Of a DNA stretch of 64,000 nucleotides, positions 3 to 54,700 are shown piece by piece. The notes beneath the pieces are model-generated. The model ran no database searches and was not told where the DNA came from. It saw only the letters and a program-made list of their open reading frames with translations. The position numbers and the translations under genes were made by a program. The stretch comes from Chaetoceros tenuissimus (lineage: Eukaryota; Bacillariophyta; Thalassiosirophyceae; Chaetocerotales; Chaetocerotaceae). How positions within the stretch are numbered: position 1 is the stretch's first letter; every line of letters starts with the position of its first letter. Location: positions 1,178,001 through 1,242,000 of the forward strand of contig BLLK01000038.1 in assembly GCA_021927905.1 (NCBI GenBank), in the 5' to 3' direction.

Positions 3-2621
3 GAAAATACCGTGACTGGTAGTGTCAGAAAGGATTTGACCATGCTTCCAGATGTGATTGGTGTTGGTGAACTTGCTATATCAGATCATAGGTCTTCTTT
101 TCCAACCACCGACGACTTGCTGAAACTATGTTCTGAAGTTCGAGTAGCGGGGATGGTCAGTGGTAATGCAGGTGTTACATATTTTCATATGGGCGATAAT
201 GACACTGCACTGCAACCTTTGGTAGATGTTGTCAAGAGAAATCCAGTACTGCAGACATATCTTGTACCCACACATATGGAACGGACTCCAACTCTGATTC
301 AACAAGGAAAAGCTTGGATGCAAGCTGGTGGTTTTGTAGATTTTTCGTGTTGGCCTGAACGACAACGCGTTGCTATTCGGCAATATTTAGAAGATGGCGA
401 AGATGGTGAAGCTCTCATTCGTGAAAAGCTTTCTATTTCATCTGATAGCTATGGTTCAATCTCTGTTTTCGATGATAATGGTACTATTGTAGATTCCACC
501 TATGGGAAACCAAAGACTTTACTAGAGACATTCATGGCATTAGTTTATAAAGATGGAGTTTCTATTGACACTGCGTTGAGACTGTTTTGTCGAAATCCTG
601 CAAAAGTTATCCGAATGGATAAAATGCCCATAAATAAAGGAAAGATAAGCGTTGGTAGTGATGCAGACTTTTTGGTTCTCAAGTTGCCCGAAAACCCATT
701 GCCACTGAATTATCCATATAAAGCTGCGCACGGGATGAGCTGGCCAAATGCAGATGGGGTTTTGCAATATGTGATTGCTTCAGGAAAGGTTATGAAATGT
801 CCAAGAAATACATCAGCAAGGGGACAAGTAATGGCATCACAGTCTCAAATTAGTCAAAGTATGAGATCTACGACACAAACAAGAGTTAGCGAAAATAGAA
901 GAAGCACATTGCCTCCTTTGGTACAACAGACAGCTCGAGTCGTGATCAATAGAGAGCAAGCTAAGAAACAAGCAAGTAGTACTTCTCGAAGACCTGTTGT
1001 AGTAGCACAAATAGCCGATGGAAAAGATTCATTAAATGGTCCTCAGATTGCGCAAGTCAGTCAAGGAGTGGTCAATAGAGAGCAAGTGAATAGACAGAAA
1101 GAAACAAGTGGTACTTTACAAAGACCTGTTGTAGTACAAGGGCAGCAACAAGGTAGCGGAACTTCTGAAAGACCCGAAGTAATGGCACCAACAAATGGAA
1201 AAAATACATCAAATAATGGTCCTCAAGTTGCACAAGCCAGAAAAGCCGTGGCTAACAGAGAAAAAGTACAGATGCAAAAGCAAGCAAACAGTACTACACC
1301 GAGACCTGTGGTACCAGAGCAAATTGAAAATAGAAATGATACATCAAATGGTCCGAAACTTTTTCAAACTACAATCCCAATTCCTCAAGAACAAGCCCAT
1401 GTACTAATACAGCAAGTGCGAATCAATAATGTGTCGGTGGCACAAGATAAGACAACTGCAAACCTTGAAATTCCACCAGATTTACCAGGATTAGGACCAA
1501 TTTCACCGGAACTGACAAAGAAACGTGGGAGAGGTAGACCCAGAAAGGATGCTTCAATCACTACCACTTCAACATCGAAGTCAGTTTCGACCGCAAATAA
1601 ACAAGGAGATCAGCAACCTCAACCAGCAAAGAAGCGTGGGAGACCTAGAAAGGATGCTTCACTCCCACCCCAGTCTATAAAGAAGCGTGGGAGACCCAGA
1701 AAGGATCCTTCAGTTGATAGAGGATCAAAGGATGTTGTAAATACAAACGGAGAAAGTGGGCAGCAACAGCAACCAGCAGAGAAACGTGGGAGAGGTAGAC
1801 CTAGAAAGGATCCTTCAGTTGATAGAGGATCAAAGGATGTTGTAAATACAAATGAAGGAGAAGGTCAACCGGAGCAACCAGTAAAGAAACGTGGGAGAGG
1901 TAGACCTAGAAAGGATACTTCAGTTGATAGTGGATCAAAGGATGTTGTAAATACAAATGAGGGAGAAGAGCCAGAGGAGCAACCAGTAAAGAAACGCGGA
2001 AGAGGTAGACCCAGAAAGGATGCTTCAGTTGATAGTGGATCAAAGGATGTTGTACCTACAAATGAAGGAGAAGGGCCACCGGTGCAACCAGCAGAGAAAC
2101 GCGGAAGAGGAAGACCTAGAAAGGATGCTTCAGTTGATGTTGATAGTGGATCAAAGGATGTTGTACCTACAAGCGGGGGAGCAGGGCAACAAGAACAACA
2201 AGCAAAGAAACGTGGAAGAGGTAGACCCAGAAAGGATGCTTCAGATGACAGTGGATCAAATGATGTTGTACCTACAAATGGAGAAAGTGGACAGCAGCAG
2301 CAACCAGCAGAGAAACGTGGAAGAGGTAGACATAGAAAGAACGCTTCTCCAAAGGAAAATTCTTTGCCTATGTTATCTAAAAATGGAGAAACAGAACAGC
2401 AATCACAACAAGATACTTCAATCAATGTTGTAGCAGACTCATCCACCCCTTCCAATGGAGATGAACTGCAGCCTCCACGGCCAACAACAGACTCTCTGGT
2501 CACCACAGAACAAAATTCTTTGACAAATTCAAAAGGAAATAGAGAGAAAACGCCACAAGCAGAAAAGAAAGATGGGAGAGTAAGATCTGGAAAGAAATCT
2601 CCCCTTATTTATCTCTTTTAA
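3..2621 (+). CDS. Isoaspartyl dipeptidase-like amidohydrolase fused to AT-hook array (5' partial)
   Basis: The reading frame is open to the left edge, so the N-terminus lies outside the window. Counting from the codon at 12, residues 1-265 match the C-terminal part of bacterial IadA-type metallo-amidohydrolases, which cleave beta-aspartyl dipeptides. The landmarks are TGSVRKDL, AISDHRSS, GVTYFHMGD (His59), VPTHMER (His88), ISSDSYGS (Asp145) and a closing SDADFLVL strand. The two histidines and the aspartate are expected metal or catalytic positions. The family's carboxylated lysine, normally just before AISDH, is replaced here by Gly19-Glu20. Residues about 305-455 hold three copies of a roughly 50-residue repeat containing NREQ and RPVV. 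Residues 503-777 hold nine AT-hooks (core RGRPRKD), the last degenerate (RGRHRKN). One uninterrupted frame covers both halves, so I read a real fusion. A nuclear, AT-rich-DNA-binding protein is inferred from the hooks; whether the enzyme is active is open. Confidence 0.8.
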   Translation, partial: ENTVTGSVRKDLTMLPDVIGVGELAISDHRSSFPTTDDLLKLCSEVRVAGMVSGNAGVTYFHMGDNDTALQPLVDVVKRNPVLQTYLVPTHMERTPTLIQQGKAWMQAGGFVDFSCWPERQRVAIRQYLEDGEDGEALIREKLSISSDSYGSISVFDDNGTIVDSTYGKPKTLLETFMALVYKDGVSIDTALRLFCRNPAKVIRMDKMPINKGKISVGSDADFLVLKLPENPLPLNYPYKAAHGMSWPNADGVLQYVIASGKVMKCPRNTSARGQVMASQSQISQSMRSTTQTRVSENRRSTLPPLVQQTARVVINREQAKKQASSTSRRPVVVAQIADGKDSLNGPQIAQVSQGVVNREQVNRQKETSGTLQRPVVVQGQQQGSGTSERPEVMAPTNGKNTSNNGPQVAQARKAVANREKVQMQKQANSTTPRPVVPEQIENRNDTSNGPKLFQTTIPIPQEQAHVLIQQVRINNVSVAQDKTTANLEIPPDLPGLGPISPELTKKRGRGRPRKDASITTTSTSKSVSTANKQGDQQPQPAKKRGRPRKDASLPPQSIKKRGRPRKDPSVDRGSKDVVNTNGESGQQQQPAEKRGRGRPRKDPSVDRGSKDVVNTNEGEGQPEQPVKKRGRGRPRKDTSVDSGSKDVVNTNEGEEPEEQPVKKRGRGRPRKDASVDSGSKDVVPTNEGEGPPVQPAEKRGRGRPRKDASVDVDSGSKDVVPTSGGAGQQEQQAKKRGRGRPRKDASDDSGSNDVVPTNGESGQQQQPAEKRGRGRHRKNASPKENSLPMLSKNGETEQQSQQDTSINVVADSSTPSNGDELQPPRPTTDSLVTTEQNSLTNSKGNREKTPQAEKKDGRVRSGKKSPLIYLF
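931..1365 (+). repeat. Three imperfect coding repeats of about 50 residues
   Basis: Within the fusion protein, the pattern [INREQ/VNREQ/ANREK ... QRPVVV ... NGPQ(I/V)AQ] recurs three times between the amidohydrolase domain and the AT-hooks. The copies differ at both DNA and protein level, so this is an older expansion than a microsatellite. No known domain is recognised. Confidence 0.6.
1516..2350 (+). repeat. Tandem coding repeat encoding nine AT-hooks
   Basis: Units of about 80-110 bp encode K/E-K-R-G-R-G-R-P-R-K-D followed by an acidic-polar linker such as SVDSGSKDVV. Eight units keep the GRPRK core and the ninth reads GRHRK. Units three to eight also share their linker, showing recent expansion of the whole hook-plus-linker block. 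Confidence 0.9.
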
Positions 2622-2998
2622 AAAGATCTCGATTGCCTTCTATAAGTCCAAAGAAAACTGAGTAGTCATTTTAACTAAGAATGTTCCAATTTTTGCCGCA
2701 AAAAGTAGAAGTAATAAAATAGAATATTTTGAAGAAAGTGGAAAGTGTTTTTTCGCGTGATACTTTTTATAAAAATAATATAACTTGCTTCCGAGAAATG
2801 TCACTAACACGACCAAAACAAGAGCGAAGACATGTGCAAAAGGGAGTCGAGTCATGCCCCGACCCTTCCTTCTTACTCTCGTGAGTATTTGGTATTCATA
2901 CGGTAGTATGAATATGCTTATATGTATTATTGATTTTCTATTGACTATTAATCCATCATAGGCGCTACAGTATTTTTTAGGATATAAATTTCATCACT
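2622..2998. other. Intergenic, 377 bp
   Basis: A 71-codon minus-strand frame (2640-2855) encodes two hydrophobic stretches around a Tyr/Lys-rich turn. It has no recognisable family and I do not call it a gene. An AT-rich TATAAAT string lies about 20 bp before the next start codon (2999). Confidence 0.4.
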
Positions 2999-3499
2999 AT
3001 GTCGAATGTGTTTGATGATTTAAACTTATTCGCTTGCTGCGGAAGCATGGACCAGGCAGATGAAGACGATGCAGCAACCACCCTCCCGGAAAATGAAAAA
3101 GAAAATAGTACACTTATAGCTAAAAGAGAGGCCCGAAAACAAAGAATAGAAGCTGCACAGAATCGTAGAAATGCATTTATTGAAGGATCCGAACATAGGA
3201 ACTCATTACTAGATGACACCAACAAGAAAGGTCTCTCTCAACTAAATTCATTCTTTGATCAGATTGGAAAATCTTTCCAAGATTGTTTTATGGAGGAGGT
3301 AATTGTGGAATCGGATACAAATAACACTCATGCGACAATGAATAAGACCAATGATGCATTGATGGAGCGAGGAGAGAAGCTGGAAAATGTTGCTAACAAA
3401 AGTGAGGATCTTGTAAATTCTGCTGAAGACTACTCTAATATGGCTGCTAAACTTGTAGATTCGCAGAAGAAAGGAATATTCGGTCGTAGTAGGAAGTAA
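2999..3499 (+). CDS. R-SNARE motif protein lacking a membrane anchor
   Basis: This is a 166-residue soluble protein. Residues about 105-158 form an R-SNARE motif of the VAMP7/synaptobrevin kind. ALMERGEKLENV puts Arg124 at the expected ionic zero layer, with hydrophobic heptad positions before and after it (DALMERGEKL, KSEDLVNSAEDY, MAAKL). R-SNAREs join Q-SNAREs in four-helix bundles that drive vesicle fusion. Here the motif is followed only by GIFGRSRK, with no transmembrane helix, and there is no N-terminal longin domain. Instead the N-terminus is acidic, then a charged helix (residues 38-60). Cys14-Cys15 near the start (LFACCGS) could be lipid-modified. By analogy with tomosyn and amisyn, which also lack anchors, it could be an inhibitory or lipid-anchored SNARE. 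The motif assignment is good; the role is inferred. Confidence 0.75.
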   Translation: MSNVFDDLNLFACCGSMDQADEDDAATTLPENEKENSTLIAKREARKQRIEAAQNRRNAFIEGSEHRNSLLDDTNKKGLSQLNSFFDQIGKSFQDCFMEEVIVESDTNNTHATMNKTNDALMERGEKLENVANKSEDLVNSAEDYSNMAAKLVDSQKKGIFGRSRK

Positions 3500-37379: not shown

Positions 37380-37782
37380 GTTTATCAAGTCCCAATAGCT
37401 CTAACCAAGAAAGAAATTTAAGTAAGTAAATATTCGTTTGACAAGTGACAGTTTGGTGTGATTTACACCTTGCATGCTGCTTCGGCCTCTGCAATAAAGG
37501 TACACAAACTGATGAAATATAAAACGAGGTCCGAATATGAAATCGGATAATGGAAAGTACTTGTGTTATACAACATAGTACACCTCGGCTCACGGATGGA
37601 AAGAACCTCTCTATTTAAACCTTATGTTTATGGAGAGCCCAACCAATATTTTAGAACTCAGTCTGATCAACTGGAGTTATGGTTGGGAGCTCAGCAGAAG
37701 CCTATGGAGCAAGTAACCGTGTGAGCATTCCTATGGAATGAAATAAAGATATTTTGCTAATCAAATTTTCCAAATAAATAGA
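37380..37782 (+). other. Retrotransposon 5' leader
   Basis: A 403 bp untranslated leader lies between the LTR and the Gag start codon. It is expected to carry the primer-binding site and packaging signal. The bases right after the LTR (GTTTATCAAGTCCC) do not match a tRNA 3' end that I can recall. Confidence 0.6.
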
Positions 37783-39459
37783 ATGGACGATATTCCAACT
37801 TTCACTGCATTTGTGCAGAATATTCTAGGCGTAGCTGTTGCAAGAGCTCGCACAGAATTGATTGCTTATATTCCAACATTTAGACGATTGATGACAATCT
37901 CAGAAGAAGACATTGATAGATTCATTTCACAAGTCCATTCTTCCAACTCTGGTCGCACTGCTCCTCAGCGTATCGTGTATGGGCCTGCTTTGGCTGCTAA
38001 TCTTAAGGCATTGTCTTTCACCCTTAAAGATAGAGCAAGCTGTAATGCTCTCTATGATGCTGCAGGTCTTGCTGCCTTGGATCAAGCCCAGTTAGCTCTC
38101 ATGCAGACTTATCGTGACCAAGCACTACAAGATAAAGATAATGACGATGCCGCAACTCTACCAGATATCAATGTGCCAAAATTTACTACAGACAATTATG
38201 ATGATTTTATGGCAAAATTCCTAACTGTCGTCTCACGTACAAAAGGTGTACATGGTGTATCTATCGATTACATTATTCGTCAAGCTGATGGAAACTTCAA
38301 TGATATCCATCCAACTCGAAAGTTGAAGTTGAGAGCATGTTTGGCAAGAAGAGGTCCGAAATTCCAAGAAGATTCCAAGACTTTCTTTGGACTGTACCTC
38401 CAGTACATTGGAACAACAGGGCATGGCGCAAACCTTGTGAAACAGTTTCAACCTCGTCATCAAGGCTTTAATTTACACTTTGCTTTTGTTAACCACTTTG
38501 CAAATGCTACACATCTCCAAAACAAGGCAGCTCAAGCGGCAACAGACTTGACTAAACTTAATTACTCTGGAGATAAGGTGCGCTTCAAGATGGAAGATTA
38601 TTATAATCGTATGACACAGTGTTTTAACGACCTAGCAAATGGAGGTGCCCAGTATGCTATGAATGATCACCAGAAGATCCAGGCTTTCTGTCAAGGATTG
38701 AAGAATGCTACTGTGGTTAGATACCATGTGGATGCAAAGCAGGCATGGGATGCCATTCAAGGACCAAAAGATTTCGACACTTATTACAATTTGTTCTCGT
38801 CTAAACTTCAGCAATATCGTACTTTGATGGGAGATGGATCTCATACTGATAATAGACGAATTAATAATGTTGATACAGGAGGCAGAGGCAGAGGACGTGG
38901 TGGACAATTTGGAAGAGGAGGTGGTAGAGGTCGTGGTCGTGGACGTGGTAGAGGTAGAGGCTCTTACCAGAATAACAATCCTTACCACAATCCTCCAGGT
39001 CTTCCTAACTTTACTGCAGAGGCTAGGAACTACCCTCGAGAGATGTTTTCCAAAATGTCCAAGATGCAAAAGGCTGCTGTACAACAAGCGAAAATCGATA
39101 ATGGATGGAAAGATGGCCGTACACCACCTGATGGCTTCACTGTGAATGGTGATGGTTATGCCATTCCTTCTCCAAGCATTATTGCTGTGATTCAGTCTCA
39201 AATGAATAGTAGACAGTTCCAGCAGGTACAGACCCCTGGTGCTGGTACACCACTTCCACCACCACCACCGCCTCCACCAGCTGCTCCTGCACCAGCTCCT
39301 CCTATCCCTGGAACCATCACTACCAATAATGCAGGTCAAGCTTTTGGCTCGTCTGCATCAAGGGGAGGTAATGGTGATGCTTCTAGTGTTATTTCCACTG
39401 TCAATGGTCGATCATATCAAGGCCATGTGTATGATGCGAATGGTAATAGAATCTCCTGA
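37783..39459 (+). CDS. Retrotransposon Gag with RGG box
   Basis: This is a 558-residue nucleocapsid/capsid-like protein. The N-terminal 350 residues are helical. Residues about 365-395 are a Gly/Arg-rich RGG-type tract (GGRGRGRGGQFGRGGGRGRG) where many copia Gags carry a CCHC zinc knuckle; no zinc knuckle is present. A proline run follows (near 487-505). The frame ends in TGA and is immediately followed, in the same frame, by ATG of the pol region, so readthrough or reinitiation would be needed to make pol. Confidence 0.85.
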   Translation: MDDIPTFTAFVQNILGVAVARARTELIAYIPTFRRLMTISEEDIDRFISQVHSSNSGRTAPQRIVYGPALAANLKALSFTLKDRASCNALYDAAGLAALDQAQLALMQTYRDQALQDKDNDDAATLPDINVPKFTTDNYDDFMAKFLTVVSRTKGVHGVSIDYIIRQADGNFNDIHPTRKLKLRACLARRGPKFQEDSKTFFGLYLQYIGTTGHGANLVKQFQPRHQGFNLHFAFVNHFANATHLQNKAAQAATDLTKLNYSGDKVRFKMEDYYNRMTQCFNDLANGGAQYAMNDHQKIQAFCQGLKNATVVRYHVDAKQAWDAIQGPKDFDTYYNLFSSKLQQYRTLMGDGSHTDNRRINNVDTGGRGRGRGGQFGRGGGRGRGRGRGRGRGSYQNNNPYHNPPGLPNFTAEARNYPREMFSKMSKMQKAAVQQAKIDNGWKDGRTPPDGFTVNGDGYAIPSPSIIAVIQSQMNSRQFQQVQTPGAGTPLPPPPPPPPAAPAPAPPIPGTITTNNAGQAFGSSASRGGNGDASSVISTVNGRSYQGHVYDANGNRIS

Positions 39460-40830
39460 ATGTTATGCCAGTTGTTATTGATGGCTGGCCTATTTCTCTT
39501 GTCCCGTAGACTGTTTCGGGGACTATTGCTTCGTTCCACTTGTACTCCAACTTATGCCATTAGAGCGTTCATTACAACTACCATCTATGCAACTAGATCA
39601 TCCTTCAATATTGAATCCTTTGTGCATCCTACTTTGACTGCAAATGAACATCAGCGTGGTACGAGACTTGGTATCGACTCATGGGCAGATACGAATTGTG
39701 CTGGAAAACATGCCTATGTTGAGGAGTTTGTTGTTGGCAAGTTTGTTACTGCTGGTGGATTCAGCGCTTCACTTGGAACCATTCCAGATTTACCCATTGC
39801 AAATGTACTCTACGCTTACGACGCTGATGATAGCAAGACATACATCATCGAATGCAATAACTCCATATACCTAGGTGATAGGATGGATGACTCTTTGATG
39901 AATCCGATACAGGCGGAAGAGTCTGATGTAAGGGTTGATACGAGACCTAAGCGATATTACTCTGATCCGCATGCACAAACCATAAGTTTTCCCTGTGGTA
40001 CTGTAATTCCTGTAGAATATGATGGGGCATTGCCGTTCATTCCTATTCGTCGCCCTACTGCGGATGAAATTCATATCTGTCCAAGACTTATAATGTCAGC
40101 TAAGTTCCCTTGGGATCCTAGTATTCCTGGTGGTAACTTCTCTCAGCCAAGAACTGTATTCTCTACTTCATCCAGTATCATTGATTCAGTGCAAGATGAT
40201 CCAATCGGATCTTCTCTCATGTCGCTGCATCTGCTATCTGCTGTGCAATCAACTTCTGTACTTCATCCACATGAGGATACCTTTAAGTCACTACAAGCGA
40301 TGAATTCGTATAAGAGCAAAGAAAGCATCAGTCCTGAGGAGCTGGCACGGTTGTTGAAGATCGGGTTGAAAACTGCCCAAAGGACTTTACAGGCAACTAC
40401 TTCGAAATTCATTAGAACTACTGGTGCTCTCTCCCGGCGTTTCAAGACTGACAAGGCTCAGCTCCGATATAAACAATTGTCTAGAATTTTCGGGAAGTTT
40501 TATTGTGACTATCTCAAGGTCAATGCTACTTCGATTTGTGGATACAAAGGAGGAGTCATCTATACTAATGGACTTGGTTTCTATAAGTTTCTTCCATGTG
40601 AAAATGAGACTTCTGAAACTACTGGTAGGACTCTTAGGTACTTCTTGCACGTTATAGGTCTGCCGTATAGCTTGCACTCTGATAACCATGGTAACTTCAA
40701 GGATGGACTCTTCAAGAGATTGATGAGGAAATTCGGAGTTTACCAGACCTTCACTGAGCCACACTCGCCATGGCAGAACAGGGCTGAGCCAGCCAGATAC
40801 GCCTATACACCTCTGGTGTTTTTGCTATGA
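39460..40830 (+). pseudogene. Retrotransposon pol, protease and integrase part (frameshifted)
   Basis: The frame is continuous with Gag apart from the TGA. DSWADTNCAGKHAYVEEF (near residue 72) is the aspartic protease active site region, in the DSxADT form seen in CoDi-like elements. The integrase follows: SLHSDNHGNFKDG gives the second acidic residue and FTEPHSPWQNRAEPA the glutamate block. Just after this, a run of five T (near 40823-40827) shifts the frame, and it ends at 40830. The segment between NRAEPA and the next conserved block looks shorter than in related elements, so a small deletion is also likely. Confidence 0.8.
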
Positions 40831-40852
40831 GTACACTGCTGATCTCTTATCA

Positions 40853-43645
40853 TTGCTTGCAACTGGGCGGTTCGATCTCCAGGGGAGAACGCCGTACAAA
40901 ATGATTATGCACTACACTCCGGATATCTCAGAATATGTTTCATTTGGTTGGTTTCAGTGGTGTTACTACTTTGATGAGGACTCCAAGAGCAAGAAGATCT
41001 GTCGTTGGTTGGGTCCTGCTCATGAAGTAGGACAGTCTTTCTGTCACTGGGTACTTCTAAGCAACAGAAATTTTATAGCTCGATCATCTGTCATTCCTAT
41101 ACCGGATCATGAGCTAGAGTCTGATGAATTGAAGCGTCGTACCAAGATCTTCATGGACTGTATACATGAGAAAATTGGAAATACCAAGGTACCGATTTAT
41201 AATAATATCTACCCTCAGCGTGTTTACTATGATGCTTTTGATGACCCTGTTGAGGATGATCAGAGTCAATTACCGTATGGCGAAGAACTGCATGAAGCTA
41301 AGCTTGAAGATGTCAATGATAGATATCTGGAGGCACTTGACAATTACATTAATGCTGAAGTCATCATGCCTGACAAGGATGGTACTGCCGTACTTACTAA
41401 GGTGAAAGGTCGTAAGCGTGATGCTGCAGGTAATCCAGTAGGAGAGGCGAATGAAAATCCTATTCTTGATACCAGAGTATATGAACTAGAATTTCCGGAT
41501 GGCAGGATTGAGGAATATGCAGTCAATATGATTGCAGAGAATCTATTTGAGCAAGCTGACGAGGACGGCTGGGACAGTGGTATCATTGAAGAATTTCCTG
41601 ACATTCGCAAGGATGATTCTGTAGCTGTACCCAAAGAGCAAGGCACATACTTTAACAGTGCTGGAGTTGAGAGGAACGTTGTAACCACCAAAGGATGGGA
41701 AGTTCAAGTCAAATGGAGAGACAAGTCTACAAGCTGGATCTCACTTAAAGACGCAAAGGAAGGCGATCCACTGGGTCTAGCTGAATTGGCTGTAGCATTG
41801 AAAGTACAAGATGAGCCTGCTTTTAAGTGGTGGACCAATCATGCCTTGAGGCAACGAGCCCGACTGATCTCAAGATTGAAGTCAAATGTCATTAGAAAAG
41901 GCAAGACTAAGTTTGGGATACAGGTTCCTGGCTCATGGGAGGAAGCTGTCAAGATTGATGATGCAAATAACAATACACTTTGGCAGGATGCTATCAATAA
42001 AGAAATGGTCAATGCTAAATGTGCTTTCAAGTTATTGGCTTGAGGAGATAAACCGCCGCCTGGATACAATGAGATACTATGTCATTTGGTGTTCGACGTC
42101 AAGCTGGATATGACTCGAAAAGCAAGATATGTTGCTGGAGGACACTTGACTAATGTTCCCGCAAACATGACCTATTCTAGTGTTGTTTCAAGAGATACAG
42201 TTCGAATTGGGTTCCTAGTGGCTGCTCTTAATGATCTTGATATATTAGCTGGTGACATCCAAAATGCTTTTCTTTCTGCTCCCACTGAGGAGAAAATATT
42301 CTTCTATGCAGGGGATGAATGGGGTGCTGATAAGGACCGTGTAGTCGTTGTAGTCCGTGCTCTATATGGTCTCAAATCTAGTGCTTTACAATTTCATAAT
42401 CATCTTGCTGCAACACTTGGTAACAAACTCGGCTTCAAGTCCTGTCTTGCTGATCCTGATCTATGGTACAAAGCATGCATCGATTCCGATGGAAATGAAT
42501 ATTACTCATACATCCTTGTATATGTTGATGATCTATTGATTATTGATAAGAATCCGAAGCGATTTATGGAGCAGATCCAAGGTGATTTCACTGTCAAGAA
42601 AGAGAGCATTGGTCCTCCTGACAGATACTTAGGAGCTGACATTAGAAAAGTTGAGGATGATGTTGCCAAACCATTTTGGACTATGAGTTCTAATTCCTAT
42701 CTCGACAAGGCCATTAAGAATCTTAAGGCTAAGCTCAAGGAGAGTGGTTTGGAATACAACAAGAAACTTTCTGATCCGAATTACAGTCCAAAGCAACCAT
42801 TTACTACTGCATCTTATCAACCTGAACTTGATACTTCTGAAGAATGTACTGATGATCAAGTTACTCTATTTCAGAATCTGATCAGGATTTTGCGATGGGC
42901 AGTAGAACTTGGTAGGATCGATATTGGATACGAGGTATCAGTTTTGTCTAGATATTTAGTTTCACCAAGGACTGGACATCTCTTACAAGCTATTCATGTA
43001 TTCAAGTTTCTTGACATTCATAAGGACAATGAATTAGCTTTTAGACCGAATTTACCAAATCTAAGTTTCAATTATGAGGAAATCAATGAGCAGACAACAT
43101 ACATGAAGAAGGCTTACCCTGATGCTGTTGAAGATTTACCTCCAAACGCACCTGTTCCAAGAGGGAAACCGTTGTCCATGTATGTGTTTGTGGATAGTGA
43201 TCACGCTGGTGATAAGGTAACTAGGAGATCTCAGACTGGTATTTTACTATACTTGAATTCTGCTCCGATCATTTGGTATTCCAAGAGGCAGGCGACTGTT
43301 GAATCATCTACTTTTGGATCTGAATTTGTTGCACTTCGCGTTGCTTCTGAATTGATTATTTCTATGAGATATAAGCTTCGTATGATGGGAGTTCCAATTG
43401 AGGGTCCGACTCATGTCTTTTGTGATAATGAGGCTGTTTACAAGAATTCTTCGATTGCTCATTCAACTTTGAAGAAGAAACATAATTCCATTTGTTTTCA
43501 TCGAGTACGAGAATGTGTCGCTGCTGGTATCCAAGTTATACACAAGGTTGATAGTGCTGACAATTTATCTGACATTCTAACGAAATCATTGTCTGCTCAT
43601 ATTAGGAAGAAATTGAGATCCTTTATCATGTACATCAGGAACTAA
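40853..43645 (+). pseudogene. Retrotransposon pol, integrase C-terminus, reverse transcriptase and RNase H (one in-frame TGA)
   Basis: The frame enters as YEYTADLLSLLATGRFDLQG (just upstream of 40853) and runs to 42043, where TGA interrupts; the same frame then stays open to 43645. RT landmarks: VFDVKLDMTRKARYVAGGH, GDIQNAFLSAP, ALYGLKSSALQFH and the catalytic YVDD at 42531-42542. RNase H landmarks: FVDSDHAGD, TVESSTFGSEFVAL and CDNEAVYKNSS. All are typical of copia pol. Catalytic residues are intact; only the TGA and the upstream frameshift separate it from a continuous polyprotein. Confidence 0.88.
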
Positions 43646-49103: not shown

Positions 49104-50663
49104 ATGTCTGGACGTGGACCTATGCTTTCACCTTCCCCTGTGGCACTTGCCTTCCCTCATATCCAATGGGACCCATTAGGCTCGCTTCGTCTTACGGCAC
49201 AGGAAACTGCACTTCTTCGTATGGCAGAAACGAACCCAATTGAATATACCCTTGCAGACTCAAGAGATGCTACCATGTATGCACGTGTACTTCTCAAACT
49301 ACTAGCAGAAGCTGCTGCTGCAGGTGCAGGATTCGGAAAGGTTTCCACCATTGTCAAGGCTTGTGATGAAGAAACTGCTCTTGCTGCTTTGGACGAAGAT
49401 CCGCTTGGAGTTGTTTCCCATTATGCAATCACTAAACTACACAAAATTATCACTACCCTCATGGGTGGATCTGGAGTTACCGTAGGAACAGTGTTCTATG
49501 CAAAGGATGGACATTTAATTGATCAGTGGAAGGCACTTCTTCGTATCCTCAATAAGGGAGGACGTGGAGATGCATTTGCACAGTCGGGATCGGCACTTTG
49601 TCTTTCTCTTATCTTGGTTACTGCATGTCCATCTATGAACTCGGGATCAAAAGAAGATAACTCCAAAACTCGTTCAGCATCATATGCTTCGGCTGTTGAG
49701 CCACTCGAGGCGTTGACTGCATGGATTGTTTCACAGCTCAAGTCGGCGACTGGAAGTAACATTGGAATCGTAGTTCCAGCCATGACTGCTTTGATGGCAG
49801 CTACTGAGACTCGTCACCTTTTCAGTGCTTCTGGAGGAATTAAATATCTTGCTCGTCAGCTTCGTGCAAGTTCTAAAAAGGCTCCAGTTGTAGAGGGAAC
49901 TCAAGCAGCAGGAAATGCTACCGTTCAACAATTGTATGAACTCACCTTTTGTCTTTGGTGTATGACTTACGAACTGAATGGATCTCCACAAATTCGTGTT
50001 GATTTTGCAAAGGATGGTGCTGCTGTCGATGCACTCTGTATCATGGTTTCTACTGCTCCTCGTGAGAAGGTTGTCCGTGTTACTCTTTCTGCTCTTGTGA
50101 ATTTGGCAACTTGTACATCAGATGAAGCTCCAGAGCCTGCTGGTATGACCAAGGTTGATGGTGGTGTTTTCTTGACTGATATGCTTGCTTGCAAACTACT
50201 TAAAGCAATTAACTTCCTTGAGGCACGTCAATTCACTGATCCTGATATTATCGATGACATCAAGGCACTTCACAAACTTTTGGCTGATAACTACAAGGAG
50301 ATGACTCGTTGGGAGGTATACAAGAATGAAGTTGAATCTGGACATTTGCAATGGGGATCAACACACACAGAAGCATTTTTCAAGGAGAATGCTCGTATGA
50401 TTGAAGGAAAGGATAGTGACTTCAAGCTATTGAAGGTTTTGATTGCTCTTCTTTCAAGCAAGGATGATGAAATCGCAGCTATTGCATGTCACGATATTGG
50501 TGAATTTGTACGTTTCTATCCAAATGGAAGAGCTATCGCAAAGAGATTAGGTGCAAAGGAACTTGTTATGCCTTTGATTGAACACGAAAATGTTGATCTT
50601 CAGCGTCATGCTCTTCAATGTGTATCCAAGATGATGGTAGCAAACTGGGAGTATGTCAAGTAA
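49104..50663 (+). CDS. V-type ATPase subunit H
   Basis: This 519-residue protein matches eukaryotic V1 subunit H (Vma13, ATP6V1H) in length and order. An armadillo-type helical N-terminal domain has FYAKDGHLIDQWKALLRIL, AFAQSGSALCLSLIL, QQLYELTFCLWCMTYEL and VVRVTLSALVNL. The C-terminal domain has HLQWGSTHTEAFFKENARMI, DDEIAAIACHDIGEFVRFYP and a final LQRHALQCVSKMM. The subunit is needed for activity of the assembled proton pump and blocks ATP hydrolysis by free V1. In diatoms V-ATPase acidifies vacuoles and silica deposition vesicles (known for the complex). Uniform C/T-ending codons suggest strong expression. Confidence 0.95.
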   Translation: MSGRGPMLSPSPVALAFPHIQWDPLGSLRLTAQETALLRMAETNPIEYTLADSRDATMYARVLLKLLAEAAAAGAGFGKVSTIVKACDEETALAALDEDPLGVVSHYAITKLHKIITTLMGGSGVTVGTVFYAKDGHLIDQWKALLRILNKGGRGDAFAQSGSALCLSLILVTACPSMNSGSKEDNSKTRSASYASAVEPLEALTAWIVSQLKSATGSNIGIVVPAMTALMAATETRHLFSASGGIKYLARQLRASSKKAPVVEGTQAAGNATVQQLYELTFCLWCMTYELNGSPQIRVDFAKDGAAVDALCIMVSTAPREKVVRVTLSALVNLATCTSDEAPEPAGMTKVDGGVFLTDMLACKLLKAINFLEARQFTDPDIIDDIKALHKLLADNYKEMTRWEVYKNEVESGHLQWGSTHTEAFFKENARMIEGKDSDFKLLKVLIALLSSKDDEIAAIACHDIGEFVRFYPNGRAIAKRLGAKELVMPLIEHENVDLQRHALQCVSKMMVANWEYVK

Positions 50664-51766
50664 TTTTTCAGTTATTTTTCAGAATTTTTTCCTGCAACAG
50701 GATGTCAATTTTGTTTCTCCCAAGTCAATTTCTTAGATTGTCGTCTACTATAATAAATAAATATCTTTACAATCAATGATGTATGTATTGGTCAGGTAGG
50801 ATGAGTTAGAGCTATAGTTCACAACCATACCGAGTACCATTTCATTTTCAACTGGTTTGCATCGATGCTCGTCGTAGGTACTGTTCTCTAACACCCCGTA
50901 TGTACATTCCCCTTGTACGAGAGTGTAGAAATACGACTCTCATGTGGGATTGAATGAAACGACTAATATTTTATTAGTTTTTGATTAATCTTCACTGTAA
51001 TCAATTTCCTTTATTGTAAAGAAACAAAGGGTCCCTGGAGTATTTTTTTACATTGAATAATTAACGCTGCAAGAAATCCGTCTCTAAGGAAGGATGCCTC
51101 GAGATGCAGATGAAACGATGTATTTTTAAATATTGTCTCTATGTCTCGGAGAAATTTCCTAACGCTGAACAAGACTACAGAAGTCACTAAATTCGCTAAG
51201 CGCACAAAAAACACAAGCTAGAATTTTTTATTCCACTATTAGACTCCTTTAGTCCATTAACATAAAACCTCTCATTTCCATCGCCAAATACACCGTTTTC
51301 CTCATGCATTCATAAATTCATCATCGCTACTTCCTCATAATTCATAGAAACATCGATAGGTGCAGGAGAGCAACCAGTTCAAAGGCATATAGTGCGTGCT
51401 ACACTACTAGTGATTCAACTGCCCTCTACACGAACCAAAGAAATTTCTTAGTGGAAAATAGCATCAGCCGAGATTACACATAAAACACATCCTTCTTGTG
51501 CAGTTGCGATACTCTGATCAAAGACATTCATCACTATAATCAGCAACGATAGTTAGTTCCACAATTTCGGTCTCTTGAAATAGAAAAAGCTTAATTTCAT
51601 ATTCATAGAGATTGATCAGACTGGATCTTCTTTCTTGCTTTGAGTCATTCATAAAGAAACGAGATTTTCATTCATTCATAATCAAAGAGTAAGGTATTCT
51701 GACATCTGATCGATCAGAACCCACACACAAATTTATAATACGGATCAGAAGTATCTATTCATAAAA
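50664..51766. other. Intergenic, 1.1 kb
   Basis: No gene is seen. GATCTGATCGATCAGAACCC-like palindromic text (about 51704-51722, CTGATCGATCAG) lies about 45 bp before the next start and could be a regulator site. The rest is AT-rich. Confidence 0.4.
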
Positions 51767-54700
51767 ATGTCAGGATATAACTATCAGGACCAGAGCAAAA
51801 GAACGCCATCACCGGATGATGCCTTTGATACAACCGCCGCATTTCCATCGGCTGCAAATACTACAGTTAGAGGTGGTAGCCGGTACAACAATTCGTGGGG
51901 AACTGAGACTTCTGCGGTCTCCCGTTTTGGCGGTTTTCAGGGAGGGAATGTTTCCTCAGTCCATGGTAACATGTGCAACAGCAATGTTACTACTGACTTG
52001 GACATGGATTCTAACTATCATCTACCATCTGGTTTTCAGAGCATGACACTCGGTGATAACAATAACTATCATCATACTGGTGGAAAGTCGAGCTTGGCAC
52101 AGGCTAATGATGGCGGAATGCCTTCAATTGCAAAAATACCTCGATCCAGTCAGACCTTTTCATCCACTGCATCTTCCTTTTCACTTTCACCTACTGGCAG
52201 TTCAAGAAAATCATCATTAGCAAGTGCAGCTGCTGGTTCATTCAATCCAGTTCAGCCAACCTTGTCACACCCACCACCTGGATTCAATTCTTCTACTAGA
52301 AGTAGCTTGAGAGAAGTAGCAATCCGTATGATCAGGGTGATAGATACAGTGAAGCAGACAATTCATCTTTCCTTTCTCGCAACACATACAACTCCAATTC
52401 AACTTTTTCACCACGTGCTTGGAATAGCTCTCGTTGTGATGATTCGCAGTACAGTTATGTTAGCCATTCAACAGTGAACACTGGAAATGGATCTTCTCTG
52501 TACAGATATTCTCAGAATAATCGATTCCAGAACCCAAAAAATGACGGTAGTCAAACTGGGACGCATAGATATACTGAACTGCAAAAGATGCTGGATACTA
52601 CTTTGGCTGCATCCGACAATGGTAAAAAGTCTTTGCAACTCAATAGTGCTTCAAAGGCATCCATGTTTGAACTTCCGCCTAGAATTGCTACTCCACCTGA
52701 GTTGCAAGAGGATGATACTCCGAAAGATAAAAATTCTGAGGCAAGTAGTTTTGCTCTTCCTCCTCGTCTCCCTTCTACTACCACTTCAGCAGAAACAGAA
52801 CAGGAGGAAGAAGCTTCTCGATGTAGCAAATCTTCAAATTCCATGTACAAGACAAAACCAAAGAGTAAAGAGTGGAGAATGAAAATGATGCAAATCCTGA
52901 AGGAAACTCCAGTTGGTCAGTTGGATCCATCTGACGTTCCACTTTATCTCCTCATGACTGTAAGTTTATTTTCCTTTGATTTCCAACAACATTGTTTGCA
53001 TGCCGTAGCTCACTTTTACCCTCTCATTCATTATTCGTGTAGGAATGGTCTAGAACAAAATCTAATGAAAGTGCTGAAAAAACAAAAGAGGTACTAGATA
53101 GATTGGAGGCTGAGATTGATGCAGGCAACACCAAGTTTGAACTGAATGTAAAGGCTTATACTACAACTATCGACGCTTGGGCGAGAACTAAAGAAGGTGA
53201 AAAGGCTGCTGTTCGAGCACAAGAAATTTTCAATCATATGCTCAAGCTTATTGAATCAAGAAAATATCCAGGTCTCAAGATTAATAATGGGGTATTCAAT
53301 GCAACGATTAATTGTCTTGCTCAAAAGACGGATAGAAAGGTACCTTCTAAATGCGAGAAATATCTCCGTGATATGCTTGAGATTTCTACCACTAATTCTG
53401 AAGTTAGACCAGATAGTTACACCTGGAATACTGTGATGCATGCATATGTACAGAATTGGGTAAATATCCACTCTTCCGACGTTGATTCTGCTACAATTGT
53501 GAAAAAGTTGTTGGAAGATATGGCGAAGGAATATAAAGCTGGGCGTTCTCTTGCCAGACCAGAGACTATTTCATATAATATCGTTATCAATGCCCTAGCA
53601 AAATCGAAAAAGGTTGGGGCCGCTTCGGATGCTGCGGTCCTTCTTGCAGAGATGCATGACAAATTTGATAATGGTGACGAAGCTGTTAAGCCAAATGTTG
53701 TGACTTATTGTGCTGTCGTAAGTGAACTTTGTCTCTGAGCGTTGACCTTTCTATTCTTGCACCTCCACTAACCATACTTTTCTTTCGTAAGATTAATGCG
53801 TATGCGAAAACCAACTCCTCTGAAGCTGCAAAAGAAGGGGATCGGCTTTTGACACAAATGATGAAGTACTACAATAATGATCCTGTTGGAAATAGAGACT
53901 TGAGACCAAATACACATGTTTTCAACACTGTCATGAACTGCTGGTCTAAGTCCAAGGATCCTGAGGCAGGGACAAAGGCAGAGGAAATGTTCGCAGTCAT
54001 GGAACAGTTGCATCAGCAAAATTTTGCTGATGTCAAACCAGATGCGTTTACTTATACAGTTCTAATTGACGCATGGGCTAAAACTGGTAGAAGAGGAATT
54101 GCAGACAAAGCAGAAAAGTTACTCGAAAAAATGAAGGCCGAGTATGATGGAGGTGGAGGCGATAAAGACCTCAAGCCAAATACATATACCTATAATGCAG
54201 TTTTAAATGCAATGGCAAAATCTGGAGAGAGCGACGCTGCAGATAGAGCTGAGAAAGTTCTTAAAGATATGGTTGAAGAAAGTAAGAAAAAAGGTGGTGA
54301 CATCAAACCAGCGACAATCCATTTTAATGCAATGTTAGATGCTGTAGCAAAGTTTAAAGGAGGGAGAGCTGCAGCTGATCGTGCAGAAGGAATTCTTCAA
54401 TGGATGCTCACTTTAATGAACGAGGGTCATGACGAGGTCAGACCAGATACAATCACTTATAATGCAGTCTTGGATGCTTGGGCCCGTAGTGGAGGGCATG
54501 TAGATGCAGCTGTTAGAGCTGGGCAGATTTTGGAGTTTATGGATACTCTGAAACACAAAGGAGTTCAAGCAGATAGTTATACATACAATACTGTAATTAA
54601 TTGCTGGGCCAAGAGTGGGGCTAAAAATGGTGCTGTGCAGGCTGAAAAAGTTCTTTCCAACATGAAGAAAAAATATCAAGAAACGAAAGAAAGATCTCTT

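Follow-up and report, generated by a model that had tools for sequence, protein, structure and literature searches.

One open reading frame joins an isoaspartyl dipeptidase (IadA)-type domain to nine AT-hooks in the diatom Chaetoceros tenuissimus

The stretch analyzed here, referred to as the window, comprises 64,000 nucleotides of one contig (C27:1178001-1242000) from a C. tenuissimus assembly that totals 41.03 Mb over 68 contigs. Its left edge cuts an open frame on the forward strand, window positions 3-2621, of which 872 codons and the stop lie inside. Extending this frame into the adjacent assembly DNA gave a complete open reading frame at C27:1177406-1180621 that starts with ATG, encodes 1071 residues, contains no internal stop and requires no intron. 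The window part corresponds to residues 199-1071, and the rest of the gene lies to the left. In window positions, the features are as follows.

3-800, + strand: C-terminal two thirds (residues 199-465) of the IadA-type domain, from TIGR01975, PDB matches and a structure model; the domain begins left of the window, at residue 59 (C27:1177580)
66-71, + strand: Gly221-Glu222, site of the metal-bridging glutamate, aligned with the GE of PDB 7cdh and 5xgw and the K of 1onw
186-188, + strand: His261, zinc ligand equivalent to His205 of CpsIadA; H in 80/80 of the best 80 of 559 homologues
273-275, + strand: His290, zinc ligand equivalent to CpsIadA His234; H in 80/80 of the same best 80 of 559
444-446, + strand: Asp347, zinc ligand equivalent to CpsIadA Asp293; D in 80/80 of the same best 80 of 559
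801-1517, + strand: linker, basic and rich in Q, N, S and T (residues 466-704), from codon score and composition
1518-2345, + strand: array of nine AT-hooks (residues 705-980), from PF02178, the cores, the tandem repeat and pN/pS
2346-2621, + strand: low-complexity tail and stop codon

Two further features were noted elsewhere in the window. At 2996-3499 (+) a small R-SNARE-like protein is encoded (Synaptobrevin, PF00957, E value of 5e-7), which ends soon past the motif and has no membrane segment obvious by eye. At 37747-43642 (+) there are four adjacent long frames, the last of which matched a reverse transcriptase (RVT_2, E value of 2.5e-14); two other frames scanned within this region gave no Pfam match, and the region is probably a Copia-type element.

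An earlier note made from the DNA letters had proposed that one frame joins a metallo-amidohydrolase core to tandem AT-hooks, and this was borne out by the 1071 codons without a stop. That note had named a stop or an intron splitting the two halves as grounds for abandoning the idea; no stop was found and no intron is needed. Codon usage was scored with a model trained on 19 long frames from the window, comparing the six frames in overlapping 80-codon steps, and the frame of the gene ranked first in 25 of 25 steps, those in the linker included. The 235 linker codons spanning residues 466-700 would remain open by chance with a probability of about 1e-7 given the base composition, and the remaining five frames of the linker contain 7 to 18 stops. 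Within the linker are three degenerate NRE[QK] units, and it had no further match anywhere else in the genome. Internal in-frame ATGs are found at residues 463, 476, 486, 593 and 623, so translation might also begin internally.

The same fusion is present on a second haplotype contig (C52), where positions 50026-53031 correspond to C27:1177406-1180411. It can be followed there through codon 1002, all nine hooks included, at which point the contig ends inside the gene. Six codons between 7 and 112 differ between the haplotypes, four of them altering the residue, and codons 113-1002 are identical, whereas the topoisomerase region upstream shows 97% identity. Gene conversion or a collapse in the assembly may account for this complete identity, and since the second contig also ends inside the gene, the copy on it supports the fusion but is not a fully independent witness. 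We conclude that the fusion of the IadA-type domain and the nine AT-hooks is very likely real. The architecture is new and its parts are known; a literature search over titles and abstract openings, with few subscription papers covered, did not find a combination of IadA and AT-hooks described.

On the second haplotype contig the gene adjoins a divergent type II topoisomerase gene. On C27 only, a Helitron of about 7.6 kb (approximately C27:1169678-1177300), containing DUF6570, Helitron_like_N and a PIF1 helicase, lies between the topoisomerase II gene and the fusion gene and ends about 105 bases upstream of its ATG. Near-identical copies of the element's helicase end occur on contigs C32, C33 and C3, with shorter copies on C34 and C16. 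A look at inverted repeats in this Helitron stretch yielded nothing further. The insertion may alter the expression of the C27 allele.

Residues 59-426 matched the NCBIfam family TIGR01975 (beta-aspartyl-peptidase) with an E value of 1.3e-88, the second-best family reaching 1.7e-12. The score of 297.8 bits (300.9 in another search) lies below the equivalog cut-off of 331.25, which was exceeded (384 to 611 bits) by all eight bacterial homologues tested among the best 80 of 559; we therefore refer to an IadA-type domain and not to a certified equivalog. Nine distinct isoaspartyl dipeptidase sequences in the PDB, from Fervidobacterium, Colwellia, E. coli and Leucothrix, matched with E values of 3.5e-61 to 1.9e-68. 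The part inside the window (window 3-827, residues 199-473) was modeled with AlphaFold from an alignment of 40 bacterial frames, with a mean pLDDT of 80.9, and in structure comparison IadA took ranks 1 to 14 (Z of 21 to 23), the next family scoring 13.6. CRMPs were among the neighbors below IadA. The earlier note had singled out residues 1-265 of the window frame for a check by HHpred; they belong to the IadA domain but form just its C-terminal two thirds.

For comparison with bacteria we used the best 80 of 559 relatives, retrieved from genome contigs with a four-row alignment as the query. An earlier scan of contigs with the diatom domain alone had given 60 pattern matches and no relative, and two scans of IMG/VR viral contigs also gave no relative. 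Identity to the diatom domain was at most 41% among these best 80 of 559 loci (tblastn). The string RGRP occurred in none of the 80 IadA frames, for which starts were chosen mechanically, so that some N termini may be short.

All metal and substrate residues of the family are kept in the diatom domain: HxH, E77, T106, Y137, H203, H232, R235 and D289 in domain numbering. The HxH (H126, H128), E135, T164 and Y195 are encoded left of the window, and the motifs FHMGD, PTHMER and SSDSYGS, in which the earlier note had recognized catalytic residues, are present in the frame. Following His290 is the substrate-site residue Arg293, an R in 79 of the best 80 of 559 homologues. The earlier note had regarded Gly-Glu at the metal-bridging position as an unusual replacement of lysine and had proposed aligning it against IadA structures. 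When this alignment was run, the GE matched those of 7cdh and 5xgw, with K in 1onw, and the oddity disappeared: glutamate occupies the site in 63 of the best 80 of 559 homologues and lysine in 17. According to the available parts of two papers, Gly-Glu at this site defines the Type I IadAs (PMC5517026, PMC7774594), Glu166 of CpsIadA coordinates both zinc ions, with E166A or E166K abolishing activity (PMC5517026), and the site is shared by FiBAP (PMC7774594). By sequence, Gly221-Glu222 is thus a Type I IadA site, and since the active site is to all appearance an ordinary one of that type, activity seems likelier than the earlier note had thought.

The available text of PMC5517026 places the carbamylated lysine in Enterobacteriales alone among its 39 sequences. 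The 17 lysine (Type II) rows from the best 80 of 559 came from 12 Bacillota, three Enterobacterales, one Oceanospirillales (four Pseudomonadota together) and one unplaced source, and a quick tree contained one branch of exactly this composition (17 rows, support of 90). Type II therefore extends more widely than the sample of that paper.

The diatom domain keeps 32 of 32 columns that are invariant across the best 80 of 559 homologues and 49 of the 52 columns conserved at 95% or more (94%). In a leave-one-out control the lowest bacterial row also kept 94%, the median being 100%. At columns conserved in Type I, 57 of 64 are kept and seven are changed. In a quick tree the diatom had the longest end branch (1.73). 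With these columns altered, the substrate could have changed. The domain is likely active as an enzyme, judged from its residues, yet divergent. Recent horizontal transfer was considered and rejected: with a branch of this length, and with the diatom inside no starred set of the quick tree, no donor is named.

The C-terminal array contains nine cores between residues 709 and 978, eight RGRPRK and one RGRHRK, so that the nine hooks counted in the earlier note stand as eight GRP and one GRH. The array matched Pfam PF02178 (AT-hook) with an E value of 3e-12, and the exact core pattern, present eight times in the window, averaged 0.00 occurrences over 100 shuffles. Most of the array is a tandem repeat with a unit of about 105 bases, which six units follow. 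In comparisons among these six, the core RGRPRKD had a pS of 0.325 and a pN of 0.020 (ratio 0.063), compared with 0.222 and 0.173 (ratio 0.78) for the spacer and 0.291 and 0.100 (ratio 0.34) for the five residues preceding the core. For all nine cores, a pS of 0.369 and a pN of 0.051 give a ratio of about 0.14, which the ninth copy raises. The contrast in pN between core and spacer was reached by 14 of 20,000 permutations of the column labels and, among 35 circular shifts, by one, the true register. As the units are related by duplication, these events are not independent and the contrast is an indication of constraint, not a formal test; the hooks look to be under constraint.

In the whole genome the exact RGRPRK-type pattern had 43 matches, compared with 12 for a control pattern. 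Eight are in the present gene, eight on the second haplotype contig and nine at one place on contig C54, the others occurring in ones and twos. The C54 array belongs to a frame of 1428 codons (C54:299231-303514) that has nine cores and matches Tudor and, below cut-off, PHD, and it lies downstream of an adjacent bromodomain frame. Long exact hook arrays are thus rare in this genome, and the second one looks like a chromatin protein from its predicted domains, a context that counts in favor of DNA tethering of the present protein. AT-hooks on a basic, disordered tail sometimes serve merely as a nuclear signal, which counts against tethering. A frame of 552 codons in C23:49501-52213 (frame 354-2012) was also observed to carry four AT-hook-like cores near its C terminus.

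Other genes of isoaspartate metabolism were sought in the genome by a search that reads exon by exon and may miss genes split by introns. Within that limit neither a second IadA nor an Asparaginase_2 gene (PF01112) was found; the Asparaginase_2 search was positive in E. coli and four more of 14 controls. A role in cyanophycin breakdown was rejected, as cyanophycinase (TIGR02069) was not found in the genome by the same kind of search, with the same possible loss of intron-split genes. The isoaspartate methyltransferase family PCMT (PF01135) gave four matches above the cut-off, which counts for the explanation we prefer.

That explanation, which we hold to be about evenly balanced between true and false on the evidence of sequence, is that the gene product is a nuclear, DNA-tethered metallo-dipeptidase of the IadA type. 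Two zinc ions bridged by Glu222 would activate water, and isoaspartyl dipeptides, perhaps also other short peptides, would be cleaved. The hooks would hold AT-rich DNA by its minor groove and assist nuclear entry. If the protein were an octamer like its bacterial relatives, each particle would have 72 flexibly tethered hooks with which it could cling to or bridge AT-rich chromatin, where isoaspartyl dipeptides from degraded, aged chromatin proteins would be finished off. FiBAP is reported to cleave a wider range of peptides and to relieve stress from heat aggregates. The known activity of IadA on dipeptides and peptides implies that the diatom enzyme would clear peptides arising from turnover and would not repair isoaspartate in place in an intact histone. 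The restriction of this chemistry to small peptides leaves tethering to DNA with no obvious benefit and counts against it. As the sole copy found, the protein may serve the whole cell too. The most elaborate form of the proposal, in which the sole isoaspartyl dipeptidase has turned into an octameric chromatin protein with 72 hooks that couples the clearance of aged peptides to chromatin, is put forward tentatively and we consider it somewhat unlikely; the physical connection it would make between the chemistry of protein aging and the genome was likewise not found described in the literature search.

Among the alternatives, the one that survives best, although we judge it unlikely, is that the protein is an ordinary, general IadA whose C-terminal repeat expansion is at most a nuclear signal, with any tethering to DNA lacking a specific role. 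With no other isoaspartyl dipeptidase found, it possibly does this job for the whole cell; its extension is mostly of low complexity, and tandem repeats like this one, with its unit of about 105 bases, expand easily. An incidental expansion fits poorly with hook cores that are conserved as protein despite silent changes, unlike the spacers between them.

Next in probability, and likewise unlikely, comes the recruitment of the IadA fold as an oligomeric scaffold that bridges AT-rich DNA, with catalysis incidental or lost. Proteins of the amidohydrolase fold do act as scaffolds in animals, namely the CRMPs, and CRMPs followed IadA among the structural neighbors of the modeled part of the diatom domain. 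Nine hooks per chain, combined with the octameric state given for relatives in the available text of PMC5517026, would suit bridging, and the very long branch and the score beneath the equivalog cut-off also point this way. In a pure scaffold, however, one would expect some active-site residues to be gone, and the intact set, comprising the metal ligands, E135, T164, Y195, R293 and every one of the 32 columns invariant in the best 80 of 559, counts against it. Very improbable is the last alternative, that two transcription units or a mis-assembly underlie the locus and the enzyme and AT-hook protein are separate polypeptides, for which the internal in-frame ATGs and the reliance of the window on a single assembly could be cited, against 1071 codons with neither stop nor frame shift, a same-frame coding signal and open linker that chance would hardly produce, and a fusion seen on two contigs that differ in their upstream DNA.

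If the DNA-tethered dipeptidase we favor is indeed nuclear and active, isoaspartate clearance would be tied physically to DNA; isoaspartate in histones has been studied as a form of chromatin aging, according to the available part of PMC11826994. The protein would then also illustrate clearly how a metabolic enzyme of bacterial type can become a multi-hook DNA-binding particle. Should the architecture alone hold, it would still be a gene fusion with separately testable parts.

The closest known systems are bacterial enzymes. CpsIadA of Colwellia psychrerythraea (Type I; PDB 5xgw and 5xgx), an octamer according to the available text of PMC5517026, resembles the diatom domain in fold (Z of 23.1 for the model of the window part), in the Gly-Glu site and in the metal and substrate residues, with 37% identity in the aligned part; it differs in being a bacterial protein of 395 residues with neither AT-hooks nor a long tail. 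FiBAP of Fervidobacterium islandicum (PDB 7cdh and 7cf6) shares the Type I Gly-Glu and 39% identity in the aligned part but has no DNA-binding extension, and a broad peptide activity is reported for it; it is described in PMC7774594. EcIadA of Escherichia coli (Type II; PDB 1onw) is alike in family and catalytic residues, with 41% identity in the aligned part, and carries a carbamylated lysine where the diatom protein has Glu222. The other half of the protein has its counterpart in multi-AT-hook chromatin proteins (PF02178) of the HMGA type and in the Tudor/PHD-like frame on C54, which share the tandem GRP hooks and basic flanks. In those proteins the hooks sit on architectural proteins or chromatin readers, whereas in the diatom protein they are attached to a metabolic hydrolase.
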